Below are positions 4,373 through 11,692 of a DNA stretch of 64,000 nucleotides, piece after piece. The stretch's first letter is position 1. Every line of letters starts with the position of its first letter. Location: NCBI RefSeq assembly GCF_001945665.1, contig NZ_CP015780.1, forward strand, positions 62,001 through 126,000, in the 5' to 3' direction. The translations under genes and the position numbers were made by a program. Source of the DNA: Borreliella mayonii (GTDB lineage Bacteria > Spirochaetota > Spirochaetia > Borreliales > Borreliaceae). A model generated the notes under the pieces. That model did not search any database. It was not told the DNA's origin and saw nothing but the letters and a program-made list of their open reading frames with translations.

Positions 4373-4837
4373 ATGATGATAGGGGCATTGCTTACCAATG
4401 ATCTTTTTTTATCTTGTCTTGTATCAGGAATTTCTGCTCAAGTAATTAAATATGGTATCCAAACCGTAAAAACAAGAAAGTTAAGACTAACTCCAACACA
4501 TCTTTTAAAAAAAATTTTTCTAGAAACAGGAGGCATGCCAAGCAGTCATTCATCAACAGTAACTGCTCTTTCAACCTCAATTGCACTAACTGAAGGAATA
4601 GATACAAATTTTATAATAGCTCTTGCATTTGCCCTTATTACAATAAGAGATTCTTTCGGAGTAAGATATATGTCTGGAGTTCAAGCAGAATATTTAAATG
4701 CATTATCAGAGAAATTAAAAAAAGAAATAAAAATTGACACAACAAGAATAAAAGTAGTCAAAGGACACAAAAAAAAAGAGGTTCTAACGGGCATAATAAT
4801 AGGAATAGTCTCTGCATATATTGTGTGCTATTTCTAG
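4373..4837 (+). CDS. DUF212 / PAP2-like membrane phosphatase-related protein
   Basis: 154 aa membrane protein of the DUF212 family, distantly related to acid phosphatase/vanadium haloperoxidases. The signature GGMPSSHSSTVTALS (about 55-70) gives the conserved PSSH phosphatase-type motif, followed by an Arg-containing segment (IRDSFGVRY). Hydrophobic helices lie at about 1-20, 65-95 and 135-154. Function is not established; a lipid phosphate or polyprenyl phosphate substrate is only a guess. Two consecutive ATGs follow a strong AAGGAGG; either could be used. Last gene of the first plus-strand group, 15 bases before the next membrane protein. Confidence 0.75.
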   Translation: MMIGALLTNDLFLSCLVSGISAQVIKYGIQTVKTRKLRLTPTHLLKKIFLETGGMPSSHSSTVTALSTSIALTEGIDTNFIIALAFALITIRDSFGVRYMSGVQAEYLNALSEKLKKEIKIDTTRIKVVKGHKKKEVLTGIIIGIVSAYIVCYF

Positions 4838-4852
4838 CATAGGAAAAAATAA

Positions 4853-6325
4853 ATGGTGCGTTTTTTAGGTTTTTTATATTTAATCACAACAATGCCACTT
4901 ATTAATTCCTGCGATGTAGCTCAATTTGGAGATTACAAACCTTTATACTTTGAAAATGAAAATGATCTAAAAACTGCCAATGAATATATAAATTCACTAG
5001 GATACAAAACAATCTCAGAATACACAACAAAAATTGACATTTTAGACTTTCCCGAAAATAAAAAAATCACAATAAATGAGACAAATAAGCTTAACAATCT
5101 TGACCTGAGGAAAAGTATATTTTTAAAAAAACTCCCCAATCTTTTCAACATAGAGGATAAAAAACTTCTTTATGTTGAAAACAGGTTCAAAACTATAGAT
5201 TTTAAAAAACTAAAAAAAGAACTCAATGTTAATGTAGACATGCATTCTATTGACTACAAGACAAAAATTAATTTTATTTCAAGCATAATATTTCTAATCA
5301 TAATAATTTTATTAATTTTTTTAGACCCAGCAAACTCTATATTTACTTTAATTTTTCTATTAATTTCATCCCTTACTTTTATAATAAGCAAAGAAATAAT
5401 GTATTTTTATCCATTTACAGTTCTCTCTTATTTGTTATTTTCAATAATCAGCAATTTTAACAAAAATTACAATAAAATATATTTAAAAGAAATAAATTTT
5501 TTAACACTAATAACAAAAATAAAACATTTATTATTTTTATTTATATTCACAACTCTATATTTCATTACAATCACAACCTTTTTTACAATAAATGTTGATC
5601 CTACTTTTATTGCATTTGTTGCAATAACAACCCTTTGCATTTTCTTAATTTTCAGCTGGATCAAAACAGAAAGCAATTTTAAAGATACATTCTTATTCCC
5701 AATAGAAATTAAAGAAAAAAAAACGGAAGGAAAAAAAGTTTTAAAATCAAAAATAGCAATACATCTACTGTTATTTACACTCTCATTAATTCCATTCGTT
5801 TATTCAAGCTATATTCTAAATTCTTATGAAAAGATTAACTACCTTTATAGTAAAAAATTAAATTATTTTGATTATTTAAATCCCAATAATATTTATATAA
5901 TGCTAGGATATAACAAAGACATACCCAATATTATAGGGTACATATCCCACATTCTTTATCAAAACGAACTAAGATACAATATTACCGCCAAATATGGAAA
6001 AATTCCTAAAGATATAAAAGAAAATTATTTTGAAATCAAAAACGACAAGATAGAAATTAATCCTAAAACTGTTTACGAAGTAGACAAATCATTTATTGAT
6101 GAAATTCTTAAAAAAGATCTTCCAAGCCTATTTTTTAAAAATAAAAATCCAATCTTAATATATAAAGAAAACAAAAATAATATCAACACAGATAAAAAAA
6201 ATTACAAAATACTTTTCTTTTTCTCTTTGCCCTTCTTTGTATTGATATTCCTATTTAAAGCAATAAGATTTACAATTCTTTTAAACATAAATGAAAAAAC
6301 CTATAAAAAATATATTCAAGGATAA
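4853..6325 (+). CDS. Polytopic membrane protein with possible lipobox, Rnf-like cluster member
   Basis: 490 aa, family not recognised. The N-terminus (MVRFLGFLYLITTMPLINSC) looks like a signal peptide ending in a spirochaete-style lipobox with Cys20, though it could be a plain signal anchor. Residues 21-135 are hydrophilic and predicted outside the cytoplasm. About six membrane helices follow (near 140-157, 160-178, 183-200, 222-242, 250-269, 302-320), then a loop and a final helix near 447-465. It sits 8 bases upstream of the RnfC-RnfD-like gene and 15 bases after the PAP2-like gene. No FMN-attachment or Fe-S motif is visible. Its position suggests a partner of the Rnf-like proteins, but I see no sequence match to RnfG or RnfB. 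Confidence 0.6.
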   Translation: MVRFLGFLYLITTMPLINSCDVAQFGDYKPLYFENENDLKTANEYINSLGYKTISEYTTKIDILDFPENKKITINETNKLNNLDLRKSIFLKKLPNLFNIEDKKLLYVENRFKTIDFKKLKKELNVNVDMHSIDYKTKINFISSIIFLIIIILLIFLDPANSIFTLIFLLISSLTFIISKEIMYFYPFTVLSYLLFSIISNFNKNYNKIYLKEINFLTLITKIKHLLFLFIFTTLYFITITTFFTINVDPTFIAFVAITTLCIFLIFSWIKTESNFKDTFLFPIEIKEKKTEGKKVLKSKIAIHLLLFTLSLIPFVYSSYILNSYEKINYLYSKKLNYFDYLNPNNIYIMLGYNKDIPNIIGYISHILYQNELRYNITAKYGKIPKDIKENYFEIKNDKIEINPKTVYEVDKSFIDEILKKDLPSLFFKNKNPILIYKENKNNINTDKKNYKILFFFSLPFFVLIFLFKAIRFTILLNINEKTYKKYIQG

Positions 6326-6332
6326 ATAGCTA

Positions 6333-8651
6333 ATGCTAGAGTTAGAAAAAGTAAAAACAATTTTTAAAAAATACAATAAATACGAGTTAAACATTGACGA
6401 GATTCAAATACCTGAATATGCCCTAATACCCCTTGAAACAGAAAATTCAAAATCCATAATATACATAATTGAAAAACAAAAAATAGAAGAAAATCAAATT
6501 TTATCTAAAAATTCAAACATAGAGCTATACACATACTCTCCAATATCTGGAATAGTAGAAAAAATATACACAGCCAACTTTCCAGATGAAAAAAAATTAA
6601 AATCAGCATTAATCAAATTTCAAGGAAAAATAAAAACCGAAAAAACACCGATTGAAGAAGGGGTTTCAAGAGAAAAAACCCTAGAAAAATTAATTCAACT
6701 GGGAATTCCTTGGTTTAACGAAAATTCTTTATTTCAATTCATAAACAAATGTAAAAAAATAGACAAAATGATTTTATTAACAAACGGAAAAGATATATTT
6801 ACAAATACTTCAGAAGCACTGATGGCAGAAAAATTAGAAGAGATTTTTTCAGGATTCCAAATAATCGACAAAATATTTAAATTCAAAGAAATAATAATAA
6901 TATCAAATAAAGATAAACTAAAAAAAGAATTCGAAAAATTGAGTATTTTTAAAAACAGAAAAATAAAAATTAAATCTTTAGAAAATGCATATCCTTATAC
7001 AAATCATGAAATGATAATGTACTTTTTATACAACAATAAAAATACAAAAGATGATATAAACCCCCACAATAATATTTTATTAGCAAATATTGAAGATCTG
7101 TACAATGCAAATCTTGTTATAAAAAATAACAACCCTTATAAAGAAAAATTTATAGCTATAAATGGAAATAAAAAAATAAAAAGCAGAATACTTAAAGTAA
7201 AAATTGGAACTTCTTTTAGCCAAATAATTAATGAGAAAATTGATACAAAAAAATATGAAATTTTTTTAAACAACCCAGCCAATAGAATAAAAATCAAAAC
7301 ATTAAACATACCGATAACAAGAGATATTTATAGTCTTACCATATTAAAGAAAAAGTCAATATACGACAAAATTAAAGCATTGTTTATATCCAGTTTTTCA
7401 CCATTGCAAATGGAAAATATTATTTTTTCATTCTTAAAGAATGAAAAAATAAATAATAACAGCAAATTAAAAATATTTAATTATACAGATAAAGAAGTAG
7501 AAGAAGAAATACACAAAGTTCAAAAAGAAATTAAAGGCAAAATTCTAAATGAAAGTCTAATAAATGAGGTAATATACACTGAAAACAATTTAAAAGACAT
7601 ATACTTTGCCATCATACTATCACTATCGCCTAGCCTGATATTTTCTTTCCTAAATAACACAAAATTCATGACAGACACCTTGCTGTTAATATTTATTAGC
7701 ATAGTAGTCTATATGCCTATAATGCTAAAAATTAATTACAAATGTTTGTCTTTTTTTGTTTACGCCGCCTTAATGGTGAGCATTATATTGCCTTTGGATT
7801 TAGAAATTACATTAAAAATAGCCTCCTTATTATTTACTTTTTTAGTATTTTTTTACTTTTTCAGATTATCAGCATTTTTAGCAAATCCCATATTAATTTC
7901 TTTTATGTTTTTTGTATTAAATTTTCCAGTAAGTTTTAAGCAAACCTATCAAGAGGAACTTAAAAACTCAAGTTCAATAATTCCAACCTGGAATAAAATA
8001 ATTGAAGCAAATCCAAATATAAAAAATTTAAAAAGTTTAAATACCTTAACAAGATATGAAAACAAAAAAATAGATGCAATTGAAAACTTCATAAATAAAA
8101 ACATTTTTTCTGTTTTCAATATAATTGTCACAAGATTTCATATTGAAAGTCTTTTGGGAGTTAATAATGAAAAAAAATTATCTCCAATCTTGCTTTATTT
8201 TGGACTCTTATTAATAGTTGGCAAATATATAATTAACAAATTAATACCATTGTCATTTTATATAAGCTTGATGGCAATCTCATACATAGCGCATAATATA
8301 GAAATACTAAACCACATCAGCTCAGATATGTTAACATTACTTATCTCTCCAATACCAATGATATTAATATTCACAATGGCAACAGAATTGCAAATAACGC
8401 CGCACTTTAAATTTGAGCAAATACTCTACGGATCACTATTGGCATTTACATACTTTTTAACATTAAGCTATATTCCTTTTGAAACTTTATCGGTCATAAT
8501 ATCTATTTTTATCCTACAATCAAGCTCAAACTTAATAAAAAAATATAGCTTAACCTTTAAAATTAAAAAAATAATGCACGTTTTAAAAACAAATAAAGAA
8601 AAAGCACTCAAAACCTCTCTAGAAAATGAAAAGGATATAATAAAATTATGA
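6333..8651 (+). CDS. Degenerate RnfC-RnfD fusion protein
   Basis: 772 aa. The N-terminal part (about 25-315) follows RnfC segment by segment: a barrel-sandwich region (IPLETEN...ILSKN...YSPISGIVEKI), GIPWFNENSL where RnfC has its Gly-rich FMN/NADH loop, then AYPYTNHEMIMYFLYN, NILLANIEDLYNANLVIKNN and LKVKIGTSFSQII. Only two cysteines exist (Cys140, Cys471), so the RnfC 4Fe-4S motifs are absent. The C-terminal part (about 420-740) follows RnfD: LKDIYFAIILSLSPSLIFSF, FLANPILISF, then MATELQITPHFKFEQILYGS (RnfD: MATDPVTSP...). The SGAT motif for covalent FMN is not found. A membrane complex that has lost its redox cofactors is the reading; the match is from memory of the families. Confidence 0.6.
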   Translation: MLELEKVKTIFKKYNKYELNIDEIQIPEYALIPLETENSKSIIYIIEKQKIEENQILSKNSNIELYTYSPISGIVEKIYTANFPDEKKLKSALIKFQGKIKTEKTPIEEGVSREKTLEKLIQLGIPWFNENSLFQFINKCKKIDKMILLTNGKDIFTNTSEALMAEKLEEIFSGFQIIDKIFKFKEIIIISNKDKLKKEFEKLSIFKNRKIKIKSLENAYPYTNHEMIMYFLYNNKNTKDDINPHNNILLANIEDLYNANLVIKNNNPYKEKFIAINGNKKIKSRILKVKIGTSFSQIINEKIDTKKYEIFLNNPANRIKIKTLNIPITRDIYSLTILKKKSIYDKIKALFISSFSPLQMENIIFSFLKNEKINNNSKLKIFNYTDKEVEEEIHKVQKEIKGKILNESLINEVIYTENNLKDIYFAIILSLSPSLIFSFLNNTKFMTDTLLLIFISIVVYMPIMLKINYKCLSFFVYAALMVSIILPLDLEITLKIASLLFTFLVFFYFFRLSAFLANPILISFMFFVLNFPVSFKQTYQEELKNSSSIIPTWNKIIEANPNIKNLKSLNTLTRYENKKIDAIENFINKNIFSVFNIIVTRFHIESLLGVNNEKKLSPILLYFGLLLIVGKYIINKLIPLSFYISLMAISYIAHNIEILNHISSDMLTLLISPIPMILIFTMATELQITPHFKFEQILYGSLLAFTYFLTLSYIPFETLSVIISIFILQSSSNLIKKYSLTFKIKKIMHVLKTNKEKALKTSLENEKDIIKL

Positions 8652-9208
8652 CTAGCAATTTAATTACATGCTTGATTATTAACAACTTAACTTTAATACA
8701 CTTTATTGGATTTGAAGACATAAAAATAAAAAGCAATCTAACCCTAATAAAAAGATACATCATAATAACAATTACCTCTTTATTAATATATTCAATATTG
8801 TTTTATCTCTATAAACTGTTTGCAGAAAACAATTTACTGTTCTTAATGCCAATTTTTTATGTAATTTTAATTTACGTGTTGGTATTATTATTTAAAGTAT
8901 TAAATGATATATTTATTGTTTACAACAAAAAATCAAATTATTCAAACGATTTCATGCTTTCAAATAGCAGCTTGATTGCAATAACATTTTTTGCACTTGA
9001 TAATAATAATGGATTTTTTAAAGGATTAGAAATACTTATTTTATCTGCATTTGGCATACTAATAGCTTTAATATTAATAACATCAATAAAAAAAAACTTT
9101 GATAAAAATCCTAAAATCAATATATTGGAAAACGAACCAATATATTTTTTTATAATGTTTATTTTATCTTTAATTCCAAATATAATTATATTAATATACA
9201 ATCAATAA
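8648..9208 (+). CDS. RnfA/RnfE (NqrD/E)-like membrane protein
   Basis: 186 aa with six predicted membrane helices. It parallels RnfA/E along its length: LITCLIINNLTLIHFIGF at the N-terminus (RnfA: NAVLVNNFVLVQFLG), SSLIAITFFALDNNNGF at the centre (RnfA: NCAVLGVALLN...), and a tail ENEPIYFFIMFILSLI (RnfA: KGPAIALITAGLMSL). The central cysteines that hold a shared 2Fe-2S cluster in RnfA/E and NqrD/E are not present; the only Cys is near residue 9. Start ATG overlaps the TGA of the RnfC-D-like gene (ATGA), so the products are made together. With the preceding gene it supports an Rnf-derived complex. Confidence 0.6.
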   Translation: MTSNLITCLIINNLTLIHFIGFEDIKIKSNLTLIKRYIIITITSLLIYSILFYLYKLFAENNLLFLMPIFYVILIYVLVLLFKVLNDIFIVYNKKSNYSNDFMLSNSSLIAITFFALDNNNGFFKGLEILILSAFGILIALILITSIKKNFDKNPKINILENEPIYFFIMFILSLIPNIIILIYNQ

Positions 9209-9223
9209 TAGCGAGAAATAAAA

Positions 9224-10301
9224 ATGAAAGAAAAAATAAATGCATTATTTAAACAAGCCGAAGACATTTGGAGGAAGCTTTGACAAAAAAGAAATTCAAG
9301 CTAAAATCGAAAAAAATGAGAAAGAAATAAACCAGAAAAATTTTTGGAATAATCCCAAAAGAGCTCAAGAAGTCATCAAAGCTCAAAGCATCTTAAAAAA
9401 CAAAATTGATCCGTGGGAAAAGCTAATCAACAAAATAAAAGAATTGGGCGATTTATGCGAAATTGTTGAAAATGAAAAAGATACTAGCAGCTTAGAGATC
9501 GAATTTAATGCACTTGAAAAACAATACAAAGATTTACTTACAATTTCCTACTTTAAAGAAGAGCTTGACACAAACAACGCTTTTTTAACTATTCATTCTG
9601 GAGCCGGAGGCACTGAAGCATGTGACTGGGTTACAATGCTTTACAGAATGTATTCAAGATATGCTGAGAGAAAAAAATACAAAACAGAGCTTATTGATTT
9701 ACTTGAAGCAGAAGGTGGAATTAAATCTGTTACAATAGAAGTCAAGGGTGAATATGCCTATGGGCTATTAAAAAGTGAAGTCGGAATACATCGTCTTATA
9801 AGAATTTCTCCGTTTGATGCTGCTAAAAAAAGACATACCTCTTTTGCATCAGTATTTGTTGACCCTGTTATTGATGAAAAAATAGAAATAATAATAAAAC
9901 CAGAAGATATAAGAATTGATACATACAGGGCATCGGGAGCCGGAGGACAACACGTTAACAAAACATCCTCTGCTGTAAGAATAACTCACATTGAAACAGG
10001 AATAGTAACTCAATCTCAAAGCGACCGAAGTCAGCACAAAAACAAAGACATGGCAATGAAAGTTTTAAAATCAAGACTTTACGAATACTATAAGAGTAAA
10101 GAAGATGAAAAAAACAAATCCAAGAAAGACACAAAAAAAGAAATTTCTTGGGGCAACCAAATAAGATCTTATGTATTTCAACCTTACAATCTAGTAAAAG
10201 ATCACAGAACAAAATTTGAAAATCCAAACATCACTTCGGTTATGGACGGCAACATAGACAATTTCATAGAAGAGTATTTAAAATGGAAAAGCTTAAACTA
10301 G
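9224..10301 (+). CDS. prfB: Peptide chain release factor 2, programmed +1 frameshift
   Basis: RF2 terminates translation at UGA and UAA. Translation begins at ATG 9224, reads 19 codons (MKEKINALFKQAEDIWRKL) to an in-frame TGA at 9281-9283, and must shift +1 to GAC (9282-9284) to continue; the full product is 358 aa. The recoding signal is CTT TGA C with a GGAGG (9270-9274) just upstream, as in classical prfB. Diagnostic residues: tripeptide SPF at about 195-197 (stop recognition) and GGQ at about 240-242 (peptide release) in RASGAGGQHVNKTSSAVR. An ATG at 9240 in the downstream frame is not a sensible start. The 3' end overlaps the next gene by 19 bases. Confidence 0.95.
9270..9284 (+). promoter_or_regulatory. 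prfB: prfB programmed frameshift site
   Basis: GGAGG (9270-9274), AAG, then CTT TGA C. The internal SD pairs with 16S rRNA and the slow UGA decoding lets the P-site tRNA-Leu slip from CUU to UUU. When RF2 is plentiful, it terminates at this UGA, so the site is an autoregulatory switch. Spacing between SD and slip codon is 3 nt, as in E. coli. Confidence 0.93.
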
Positions 10302-11692
10302 AGCTAGTAATACCATTGCTAATACTTATAATATGTAAAATACATTCTCAAAGTAATATCGAGTACAACTTTTCCTATATCATTAATACAAAAAAAGAAA
10401 ATATTGATCTTAAAAAAGGAATTGAAAAACAATTGGACAAAATCTATGATAAAATCACAGAACATATAGTAAACAATGATGACAAGAATATCATTAAAGA
10501 TATTTATATAAATCAAGATATAATAAAAACAGAACTTGAAATTAGCAAATTAAAAAAAGAAATGGATAAAAAAAAACTTCAAAACATAATAACCGCAAAA
10601 GAAAAGCATAACACCAAAACTAAAATTGAAGAGCTTAAAAAAAATATTCAAAATATTAACAGTAAACAAAAAAAATTTGCAGAATATTTTAACAATTTAA
10701 AAAAACTAAAAGTAAAATATAAAAAAATCGAAGAACAAACAAACATATCAAATTTAAATAAAGAATTTTTCATAAGAGAAGAATTATTTTTTATTAGCTA
10801 TATTGACCTGAAAAAAATAGAAAATTATTATTTGCTAGAAATTAGCAACATCACTCCTGAGAAAATTGAAACTAAAAAAGCGGTATTTAAAACATCATCT
10901 TCTGTTAATGAAATTGCAAATCAAATAACAAAACACAGCTTCAAAGAAATATTAGGTAGAGAATTTTTAAAAATTAACATTAACGTCAAAAACAACCCAG
11001 ATGCAAAAATCTATATAAATGAAAAATTTGTTTCAAAAGGAATCTATTACGATAATATTTTTGACATTTCCAAACTCTCAAACAAAGAAATTGAAATACA
11101 AATCACAAGTACAAATTTCGAAAACTACTCTATTAAAAGAACGGTAAAAAATGCAGATTCAATAATATTAAATATTGACTTAAAAAGAACAATCTCTAAA
11201 AAAGTAGAGATTACAAGCAATGTAAAATCTAAAGTTTTTAAAAAAGGCATATTTATGGGAGAAACTCCAATTGAAATTGAAAAACCAGAAAATCAAGACA
11301 TTATTTTGCTTAAATCTCAAGGGTATAAAGATAAATTCAAGTTAATAAATAAAGAAGAAGATAAAGTAGAAATAGAAATGATAAAAACTAACAAAAATAG
11401 ACTTATCAATACAAGAGATAAATTTTATGTTAATCTGGCTGTTTTTACATTAAGCACAATAGGAACCATTTTTGCAGGAACATTACTTAACAATTCAGAG
11501 GCACTTTACAAAATAACGGGCAATCACTTTATTAACAAAAGATTAACAGCTGAAGATGTTTATATGGCAAAAGCAGAACAAATGACTGCTACATTTCTAT
11601 TTGGAGCAGGCATCACTTTAACTATTGGCAGCTTTATATCATTAATAACTCATTTAGTAGAATATATTAAAGAAGCAAATATAGGAGAATAG
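10283..11692 (+). CDS. Exported PEGA-domain-like protein
   Basis: 469 aa, exact role unknown. An N-terminal signal peptide or anchor (about 1-22, ending IHSQS) is followed by a charged, coiled-coil-like stretch (about 85-155). Two PEGA-type beta repeats come next: NPDAKIYINEKFVSKG (about 235-300) and KSKVFKKGIFMGETPIEIE (about 310-370), the pattern in which a surface turn projects X-G-x-TP. Two hydrophobic segments near 385-402 and 430-452 would anchor the C-terminus. The start overlaps the last 19 bases of prfB. PEGA domains are associated with envelope surfaces; a structural or binding role is inference. Confidence 0.65.
   Translation: MEKLKLELVIPLLILIICKIHSQSNIEYNFSYIINTKKENIDLKKGIEKQLDKIYDKITEHIVNNDDKNIIKDIYINQDIIKTELEISKLKKEMDKKKLQNIITAKEKHNTKTKIEELKKNIQNINSKQKKFAEYFNNLKKLKVKYKKIEEQTNISNLNKEFFIREELFFISYIDLKKIENYYLLEISNITPEKIETKKAVFKTSSSVNEIANQITKHSFKEILGREFLKININVKNNPDAKIYINEKFVSKGIYYDNIFDISKLSNKEIEIQITSTNFENYSIKRTVKNADSIILNIDLKRTISKKVEITSNVKSKVFKKGIFMGETPIEIEKPENQDIILLKSQGYKDKFKLINKEEDKVEIEMIKTNKNRLINTRDKFYVNLAVFTLSTIGTIFAGTLLNNSEALYKITGNHFINKRLTAEDVYMAKAEQMTATFLFGAGITLTIGSFISLITHLVEYIKEANIGE

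Follow-up and report, generated by a model that had tools for sequence, protein, structure and literature searches.

A conserved Rnf-derived set of membrane proteins in Borreliaceae with its usual redox cofactor positions replaced

What becomes of an Rnf complex when the residues that hold its redox cofactors have been replaced? Rnf is seen as a machine for redox work, and a borrelial protein carries the database label of one of its electron transport subunits, yet the sequence argues against the usual role. The question is raised by a locus within a 64,000-nucleotide stretch of Borreliella mayonii DNA (contig NZ_CP015780.1, positions 62,001 to 126,000; hereafter the window, whose own numbering is used throughout), in which the gene for a 772-amino-acid protein (6333–8651, forward strand) lies between those for a 490-amino-acid lipobox-bearing membrane protein (4853–6325) and a 186-amino-acid membrane protein (8648–9208), all on the same strand. 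Judging from profile comparisons, Borreliaceae carry an Rnf-derived membrane protein set made up of an RnfC–RnfD fusion and an RnfA-type protein at this locus, and an RnfE-type protein at an unlinked one. Nearly all ligand positions of the usual cofactors are replaced in them, and the complex they would form probably has a role different from the usual electron transfer of Rnf.

The Rnf ancestry of these proteins is partly in the databases already: at NCBI, 19 of the 40 protein matches are named 'RnfABCDGE type electron transport complex subunit D', and the 186-amino-acid protein appears in one UniRef entry as 'Electron transporter RnfA'. An initial annotation, made from the sequence alone, had regarded this as no established borrelial system, which fits the literature listed but not the database names. 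Among the papers listed by a search that left most subscription papers outside, we found none describing a borrelial Rnf system, and two reviews (PMC12174285, PMC12052999) do not mention Borrelia. The same annotation gave the open reading frames and the ATGA overlap of the last two genes (8648–8651) correctly.

Identity of the Rnf-derived proteins

As a reference set we used 16 Rnf operons of other spirochaetes, with 15–16 canonical sequences per subunit; gene identities were assigned by BLAST against one operon, taken to be in the order B-C-D-G-E-A. The E, A and D genes of that operon match RnfE, RnfA and RnfD of the PDB, the D gene having been checked on a 90%-identical relative. The hhalign E-values given below refer to single profile pairs, and each of the four subunit pairs was also compared with 101 decoys (60 block-shuffled, 40 column-shuffled and one reversed); the observed score exceeded all 101 in every pair.

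By these comparisons the 772-amino-acid protein is an RnfC–RnfD fusion. Its N-terminal half aligns with canonical RnfC (E = 2.9e-16; score 122.5 against a decoy maximum of 26.2) and its C-terminal half with RnfD (E = 7.5e-9; 68.2 against 25.0). Across the subunits, these two pairings and that of the 186-amino-acid protein with RnfA stand out, the remaining pairs having E-values of at least 0.12. Residues 15–345 (6375–7367), comprising barrel-sandwich and Nuo51-like domains, match the NCBIfam rnfC model (TIGR01945) at E = 2.1e-24, with 85.9 bits where the cut-off is far higher (245.95); the nqrA model matches the same half at E = 6.7e-8 and scores lower than rnfC there. The RnfC chain 7zc6_C of the PDB matches this half at E = 4.9e-13, and the Pfam families RnfC_N and Complex1_51K (the flavin mononucleotide (FMN) domain of Nuo51) were detected in 16/16 scanned fusion orthologues, falling slightly below the cut-off in the window's own protein. 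The RnfC resemblance noted earlier is thus real, reaching to about residue 345–370 rather than 315. The membrane part homologous to RnfD spans residues 415–739 (7575–8549), in agreement with the stretch of about 420–740 first proposed within the same chain: Pfam NQR2_RnfD_RnfE was found in 15 of the 16 orthologues (best E = 2.2e-14) and not in the window's own protein, and PDB RnfD matches at an E of merely 0.014–0.018. The profile comparison that the initial annotation had suggested returned Rnf matches, with all decoys scoring lower.

When 148 genomes of the class were searched with a profile, the full-length fusion was recovered in 12, all Borreliaceae, and parts of the RnfC half in 11 others; the profile misses most canonical RnfC as well, so distant fusions could escape it. 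Similarly, a contig scan with two short patterns, which reaches close relatives, returned 13 loci, Borreliaceae throughout, and the fusion had no match on plasmids.

The 186-amino-acid protein, previously described as following RnfA or RnfE, appears to be RnfA-type and not RnfE, although this is the weakest of our four assignments. Its hhalign match to RnfA has an E-value of 1.8e-4 (probability 48%) and a score of 33.3, against 21.1 for the best decoy, whereas that to RnfE has an E-value of 0.57. None of the 17 scanned members of its family matched the Rnf-Nqr family of Pfam, nor did its locus in 36 Borreliaceae genomes. An AlphaFold model built from 30 sequences shows helices at low confidence (predicted local distance difference test score, pLDDT, 53).

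The same Pfam family (PF02508) led instead to a second gene. Over the 36 genomes it matched in eight, in six of them at one separate chromosomal locus, with two of these matches over the cut-off; the other two (in genomes G006 and G021) lie at other sites, contain stops and were discarded as chance. The gene at the second locus (L071:1858-2478, reverse strand, outside the window; orthologues L073–L102) sits, in two loci, between genes named from their sequences as argS, for arginyl-tRNA synthetase, and one for a methyl-accepting protein; four further loci have reading frames similar in size and order. We take it to be BB0595 of B. burgdorferi. Its products, 190–226 amino acids long in 30 loci, match RnfE at E = 1.9e-7 (94%), with a score of 52.7 against a decoy maximum of 37.4, and RnfA at E = 0.047. 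By this evidence RnfE is retained, not lost, at a separate locus, and the RnfA/RnfE pair is complete but divided between two loci.

Selection and the cofactor positions

The 36 genomes of the order that were searched belong to one family and its two genera Borreliella and Borrelia, are 92–99% complete and do not include the window's own assembly. The fusion has one orthologue per genome in 36/36, and RnfE orthologues are likewise present in all 36. Synteny and the RnfA and RnfE column counts are based on 30 loci of the 36 orthologue places, for the fusion and RnfE alike; the three window genes occur together in 30/30. Ratios of nonsynonymous to synonymous substitution (dN/dS) against seven relatives are 0.11–0.17 for the fusion, 0.12–0.23 for the 490-amino-acid protein and 0.12–0.22 for RnfE; for the 186-amino-acid gene they are 0.16–0.39, with the top values from the two closest pairs. 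All four genes are under purifying selection. A single read-through TAA occurs in 3/36 fusion and 2/36 RnfE matches, and, since the open frames are of normal length, these stops lie at the extreme 3′ end. This conservation does not support the description of the system as a degenerate relic.

The absence of cofactor sites noted in the same annotation was, by contrast, borne out by the alignment columns. The 772-amino-acid protein has only two cysteines (140 and 471) and the 186-amino-acid protein only Cys8, none of them at a ligand position. In the RnfC half, none of the eight ligand cysteines of the two C-terminal 4Fe-4S clusters is left, and the GxGGAxFP motif for FMN is replaced in 16/16 orthologues (here W127, N129, L133 and F134). 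The column of the threonine that binds FMN covalently in RnfD holds Lys or Gln in 15 of the 16 and Thr in one, with K564 in the window's protein. Canonical conserved columns are retained at 14 of 71 aligned positions in RnfC and 15 of 53 in RnfD. As a separate observation, C140 in the RnfC half is invariant in 16/16 orthologues and lies away from every iron–sulfur ligand position.

The [2Fe-2S] cluster shared by RnfA and RnfE would have fared no better. Its ligand columns (RnfA Cys25 and Cys113, RnfE Cys25 and Cys108) hold Cys in 15/15 canonical sequences each, and Cys appears in none of the four across 30 RnfA and 30 RnfE sequences of Borreliaceae. In RnfA, the Cys25 column is Glu in 30/30 and the Cys113 column Ser in 28/30, with Asn and Thr once each; in RnfE, the corresponding columns are Phe (30/30) and Ile (29/30, Thr once). 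Within the window, the codons of E23-D24, invariant in 30/30, lie at 8714–8719 at the position of RnfA Cys25-Pro26, and those of S105-N106-S107 at 8960–8968 at that of T111-N112-C113.

If the covalent flavin is gone, the flavinylase ApbE is expected to be gone too. Indeed, ApbE was detected in 0/36 Borreliaceae genomes, and so were FMN_bind (RnfG, PF04205) and the RnfB-type FeS domain (PF04060), which extends the picture from the locus to the genome. The same searches in control genomes found ApbE in 7/14, FMN_bind in 4/14 and RnfB-type FeS in 5/14, and in eight other spirochaete genomes, selected for having an rnfC match, ApbE in 8/8 and RnfB-type FeS in 7/8.

Comparison with related systems

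Like the canonical Rnf complexes of Acetobacterium woodii, Clostridium tetanomorphum and Azotobacter vinelandii, the borrelial set has homologues of RnfC, RnfD, RnfA and RnfE and keeps the acidic residue E115 of RnfE and N123 of RnfD. It differs from them in the fusion of C and D, the unlinked E, the absence of any detected B or G, the replaced iron–sulfur and covalent-flavin ligand positions and the lack of an ApbE match in the 36 genomes. The Na+-translocating NADH:quinone oxidoreductase (Na+-NQR) is a more distant likeness: the nqrA model matches the borrelial RnfC half, which is closer by score to rnfC, and the NQR subunits D and E are PDB relatives of RnfE and RnfA. NQR retains its flavin and [2Fe-2S] cofactors.

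Closer to hand, one report describes the noncanonical RNF of Treponema pallidum as a proposed flavin-dependent redox pump (PMC7512555). A treponeme-family genome of 1,139,633 bases (G092, locus L118, G092:C1:170500-178500) carries DUF212-rnfC-rnfD and, after these, three genes for small membrane proteins at the places of rnfG, rnfE and rnfA, with weak matches of 1.6%, 2.9% and 20%. It resembles the borrelial locus in the order DUF212-rnfC-rnfD and in having no RnfB-type FeS match, and differs in keeping both ApbE and the RnfC iron–sulfur cysteines; its glycine-rich RnfC motif falls in an alignment gap. The DUF212 homologue beside rnfC, seen in one of the 17 rnf loci searched with limited flanks, suggests shared ancestry of the locus. 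The RnfA and RnfE candidates of G092 align too weakly to place cluster cysteines. Our observations raise the question whether the proposed T. pallidum pump has a membrane cluster, a question on which this locus bears.

A second comparison comes from a spirochaete family (f38) with three loci (L119–L121, in G109, G114 and G134) that encode an RnfA-type protein (94% to RnfA). As in Borreliaceae, both aligned cluster columns of this protein lack Cys in 3/3, and the FMN motif of RnfC is degenerate in 2/3; the column call is alignment-dependent, as the L119 protein has one Cys near the second column, and the only Cys of the L121 protein is terminal. Unlike in Borreliaceae, all eight RnfC iron–sulfur cysteines are kept in 3/3, RnfD is joined to an RnfG-like domain in 2/3, and ApbE is present in the 4/4 f38 genomes searched. 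The 'RnfE' of f38 is placed through gene order alone, its matches being 0.8% for RnfE and 47% for a portion of RnfD. Partial stripping thus occurs, judging from these alignments, outside Borreliaceae as well, and complete stripping only in Borreliaceae among the few lineages whose operons were read. Borrelial RnfA and RnfE show no resemblance to the stripped f38 proteins (probability at most 0.6%), and the comparison with G092 gave at most 0.4% for RnfA and RnfE, 5.6% for the RnfC half and 0.1% for the RnfD half. A single stripped ancestor is therefore unsupported, and the loss may have occurred in parallel.

Possible functions and neighbouring genes

The maintenance of these genes by selection, combined with the replacement of their cofactor ligands, points to a function different from the usual Rnf electron transfer, and the sequences would permit an ion-translocating core. 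Our preferred reading, tentative and at somewhat less than an even chance, is a redox-free cation path through RnfA and RnfE. The heterodimer would still conduct a cation by alternating access, driven by ion gradients and not by electrons; Glu23-Asp24 of RnfA, as a fixed or titratable charge, would stand in electrostatically for the cluster that was lost, and the RnfC–D chain would act as a scaffold or cytosolic gate. The model for such a path is the Rnf of A. woodii, for which one account (PMC11889175) proposes that RnfA/RnfE form a Na+ path gated by the [2Fe-2S] cluster: the reduced cluster draws Na+ in, along a path lined by E115 and R67 of RnfE and T110, T111 and E88 of RnfA. In Borreliaceae, E115, at the cytosolic entry, is conserved as E110 in 30/30 RnfE, and the T111 position of RnfA is an invariant Ser.

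Several observations weigh against this reading. The R67 column is an invariant Ile in borrelial RnfE, and the E88 and T110 columns of RnfA hold hydrophobic residues. Among the A. woodii mutants reported in that account, R67A showed no autotrophic growth and E115Q and E115K were impaired, but E115A grew like wild type (PMC11889175), so the retention of E115 is weak evidence; on this ground the cation path was weighed slightly lower and a scaffold role raised to about the same level. Few canonical conserved columns are retained in RnfA (5 of 38 aligned) or RnfE (9 of 49). The RnfA homology is the weakest link among the four subunits, and a Foldseek search of the PDB with its model gave two matches, none with E <= 0.001, the model being too poor to test the fold. 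RnfE is unlinked, so that its forming a complex with RnfA and the fusion is assumed. Finally, two residues of RnfD that hydrogen-bond riboflavin in A. woodii, according to the same account (PMC11889175), persist or have changed conservatively: N518 preserves N123, and a Glu (E685) takes the place of D249, both in 16/16, so some flavin binding may be possible.

These two contacts favour a residual flavin electron path, for example through non-covalent riboflavin in RnfD with an unspecified donor, which we nevertheless regard as improbable: the iron–sulfur cysteines are all gone, as are the RnfC FMN motif and, in 15/16, the covalent-FMN Thr, and with RnfB-type FeS, FMN_bind and ApbE each at 0/36 there is no visible chain of donors and acceptors. 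Slightly more plausible, and still unlikely, is the conversion of a redox pump into a redox-free secondary transporter, in which protonation of Glu23/Asp24 would replace cluster oxidation and an RnfA/E rocker would exchange Na+ (or another cation) for H+, with partial stages surviving in other spirochaetes. An ancestral Rnf operon in decay, left without function, would account for the lost catalytic motifs, the broken-up operon and the two subunits not found; it is hard to reconcile with the presence of the fusion and RnfE in 36/36 genomes, stops at the 3′ end only and dN/dS of 0.11–0.39, and we consider it very unlikely. Least credible of all is a chance likeness of AT-rich hydrophobic proteins to Rnf subunits. 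Identity is low, the sequences are very hydrophobic and the Rnf-Nqr family of Pfam misses the 186-amino-acid gene, but the matches are nearly full-length and subunit-specific, 101/101 decoys score lower in all four pairs, and the RnfC and RnfD parts match curated families and PDB chains.

The remaining alternative is one to which we give the same tentative standing as to the cation path, namely that the architecture has been kept and transport lost, leaving an inner-membrane scaffold or a platform for assembly or signalling, perhaps for the 490-amino-acid lipoprotein. Such a platform would loosely resemble Rsx-SoxR in Escherichia coli, minus the redox (PMC11729352). It would be in line with the change of most A. 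woodii ion-path residues, R67 included, and with the position of the 490-amino-acid gene, which adjoins the fusion in 30/30 loci. Going by its description and the gene numbering, the latter gene is putatively bb0071. In a tick screen, larval ticks did not yield the mutant in bb0071, a gene listed there as 'putative lipoprotein' (PMC6516651, Table 2); bb0071 is outside the five genes confirmed in that study, and bb0072, bb0073 and Rnf go unmentioned in its main text. The residues E23, D24 and S105 of borrelial RnfA speak against a mere scaffold, which would have no obvious need for acidic or polar residues held invariant (30/30) at former cluster-ligand sites.

Should the cation-path reading hold and the membrane core still move ions, Borreliaceae would offer a natural experiment that parts the Rnf ion path from its electron path. 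The location of the former is disputed between RnfA/E and NqrB/RnfD in two accounts (PMC11889175, PMC12174285). Borrelia and Borreliella also gain a conserved, uncharacterised set of inner-membrane proteins.

The 490-amino-acid protein had been suggested as a possible third subunit. Its constant adjacency makes it a candidate partner, and the link to the Rnf proteins rests solely on that adjacency: it has no Rnf similarity and, because RnfE survives elsewhere, it is not needed as a partner of RnfA. A search reaching relatives that share short words returned 30 proteins, of which the 23 assigned ones all belong to Borreliaceae and the other seven are 66–90% identical. A Pfam scan of 16 members gave only two single-member matches (E = 0.059 and 0.092), and the AlphaFold model from 29 sequences has a mean pLDDT of 47. 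As a substitute for RnfG, RnfB or RnfE the protein was rejected, its hhalign probability against the six canonical subunits being at most 0.3%.

Upstream of it lies a DUF212 (divergent PAP2) gene (4373–4837, forward strand), identified by a Pfam scan of the window, and downstream of the RnfA-type gene lies prfB (9240–10301, named from its sequence). From DUF212 to prfB all genes run in the same direction, with intergenic gaps of 7–31 bases or overlaps. Between prfB and ftsY, the latter also named from its sequence, a 469-amino-acid protein is encoded at 10283–11692, with a weak, sub-threshold match to the PEGA domain.

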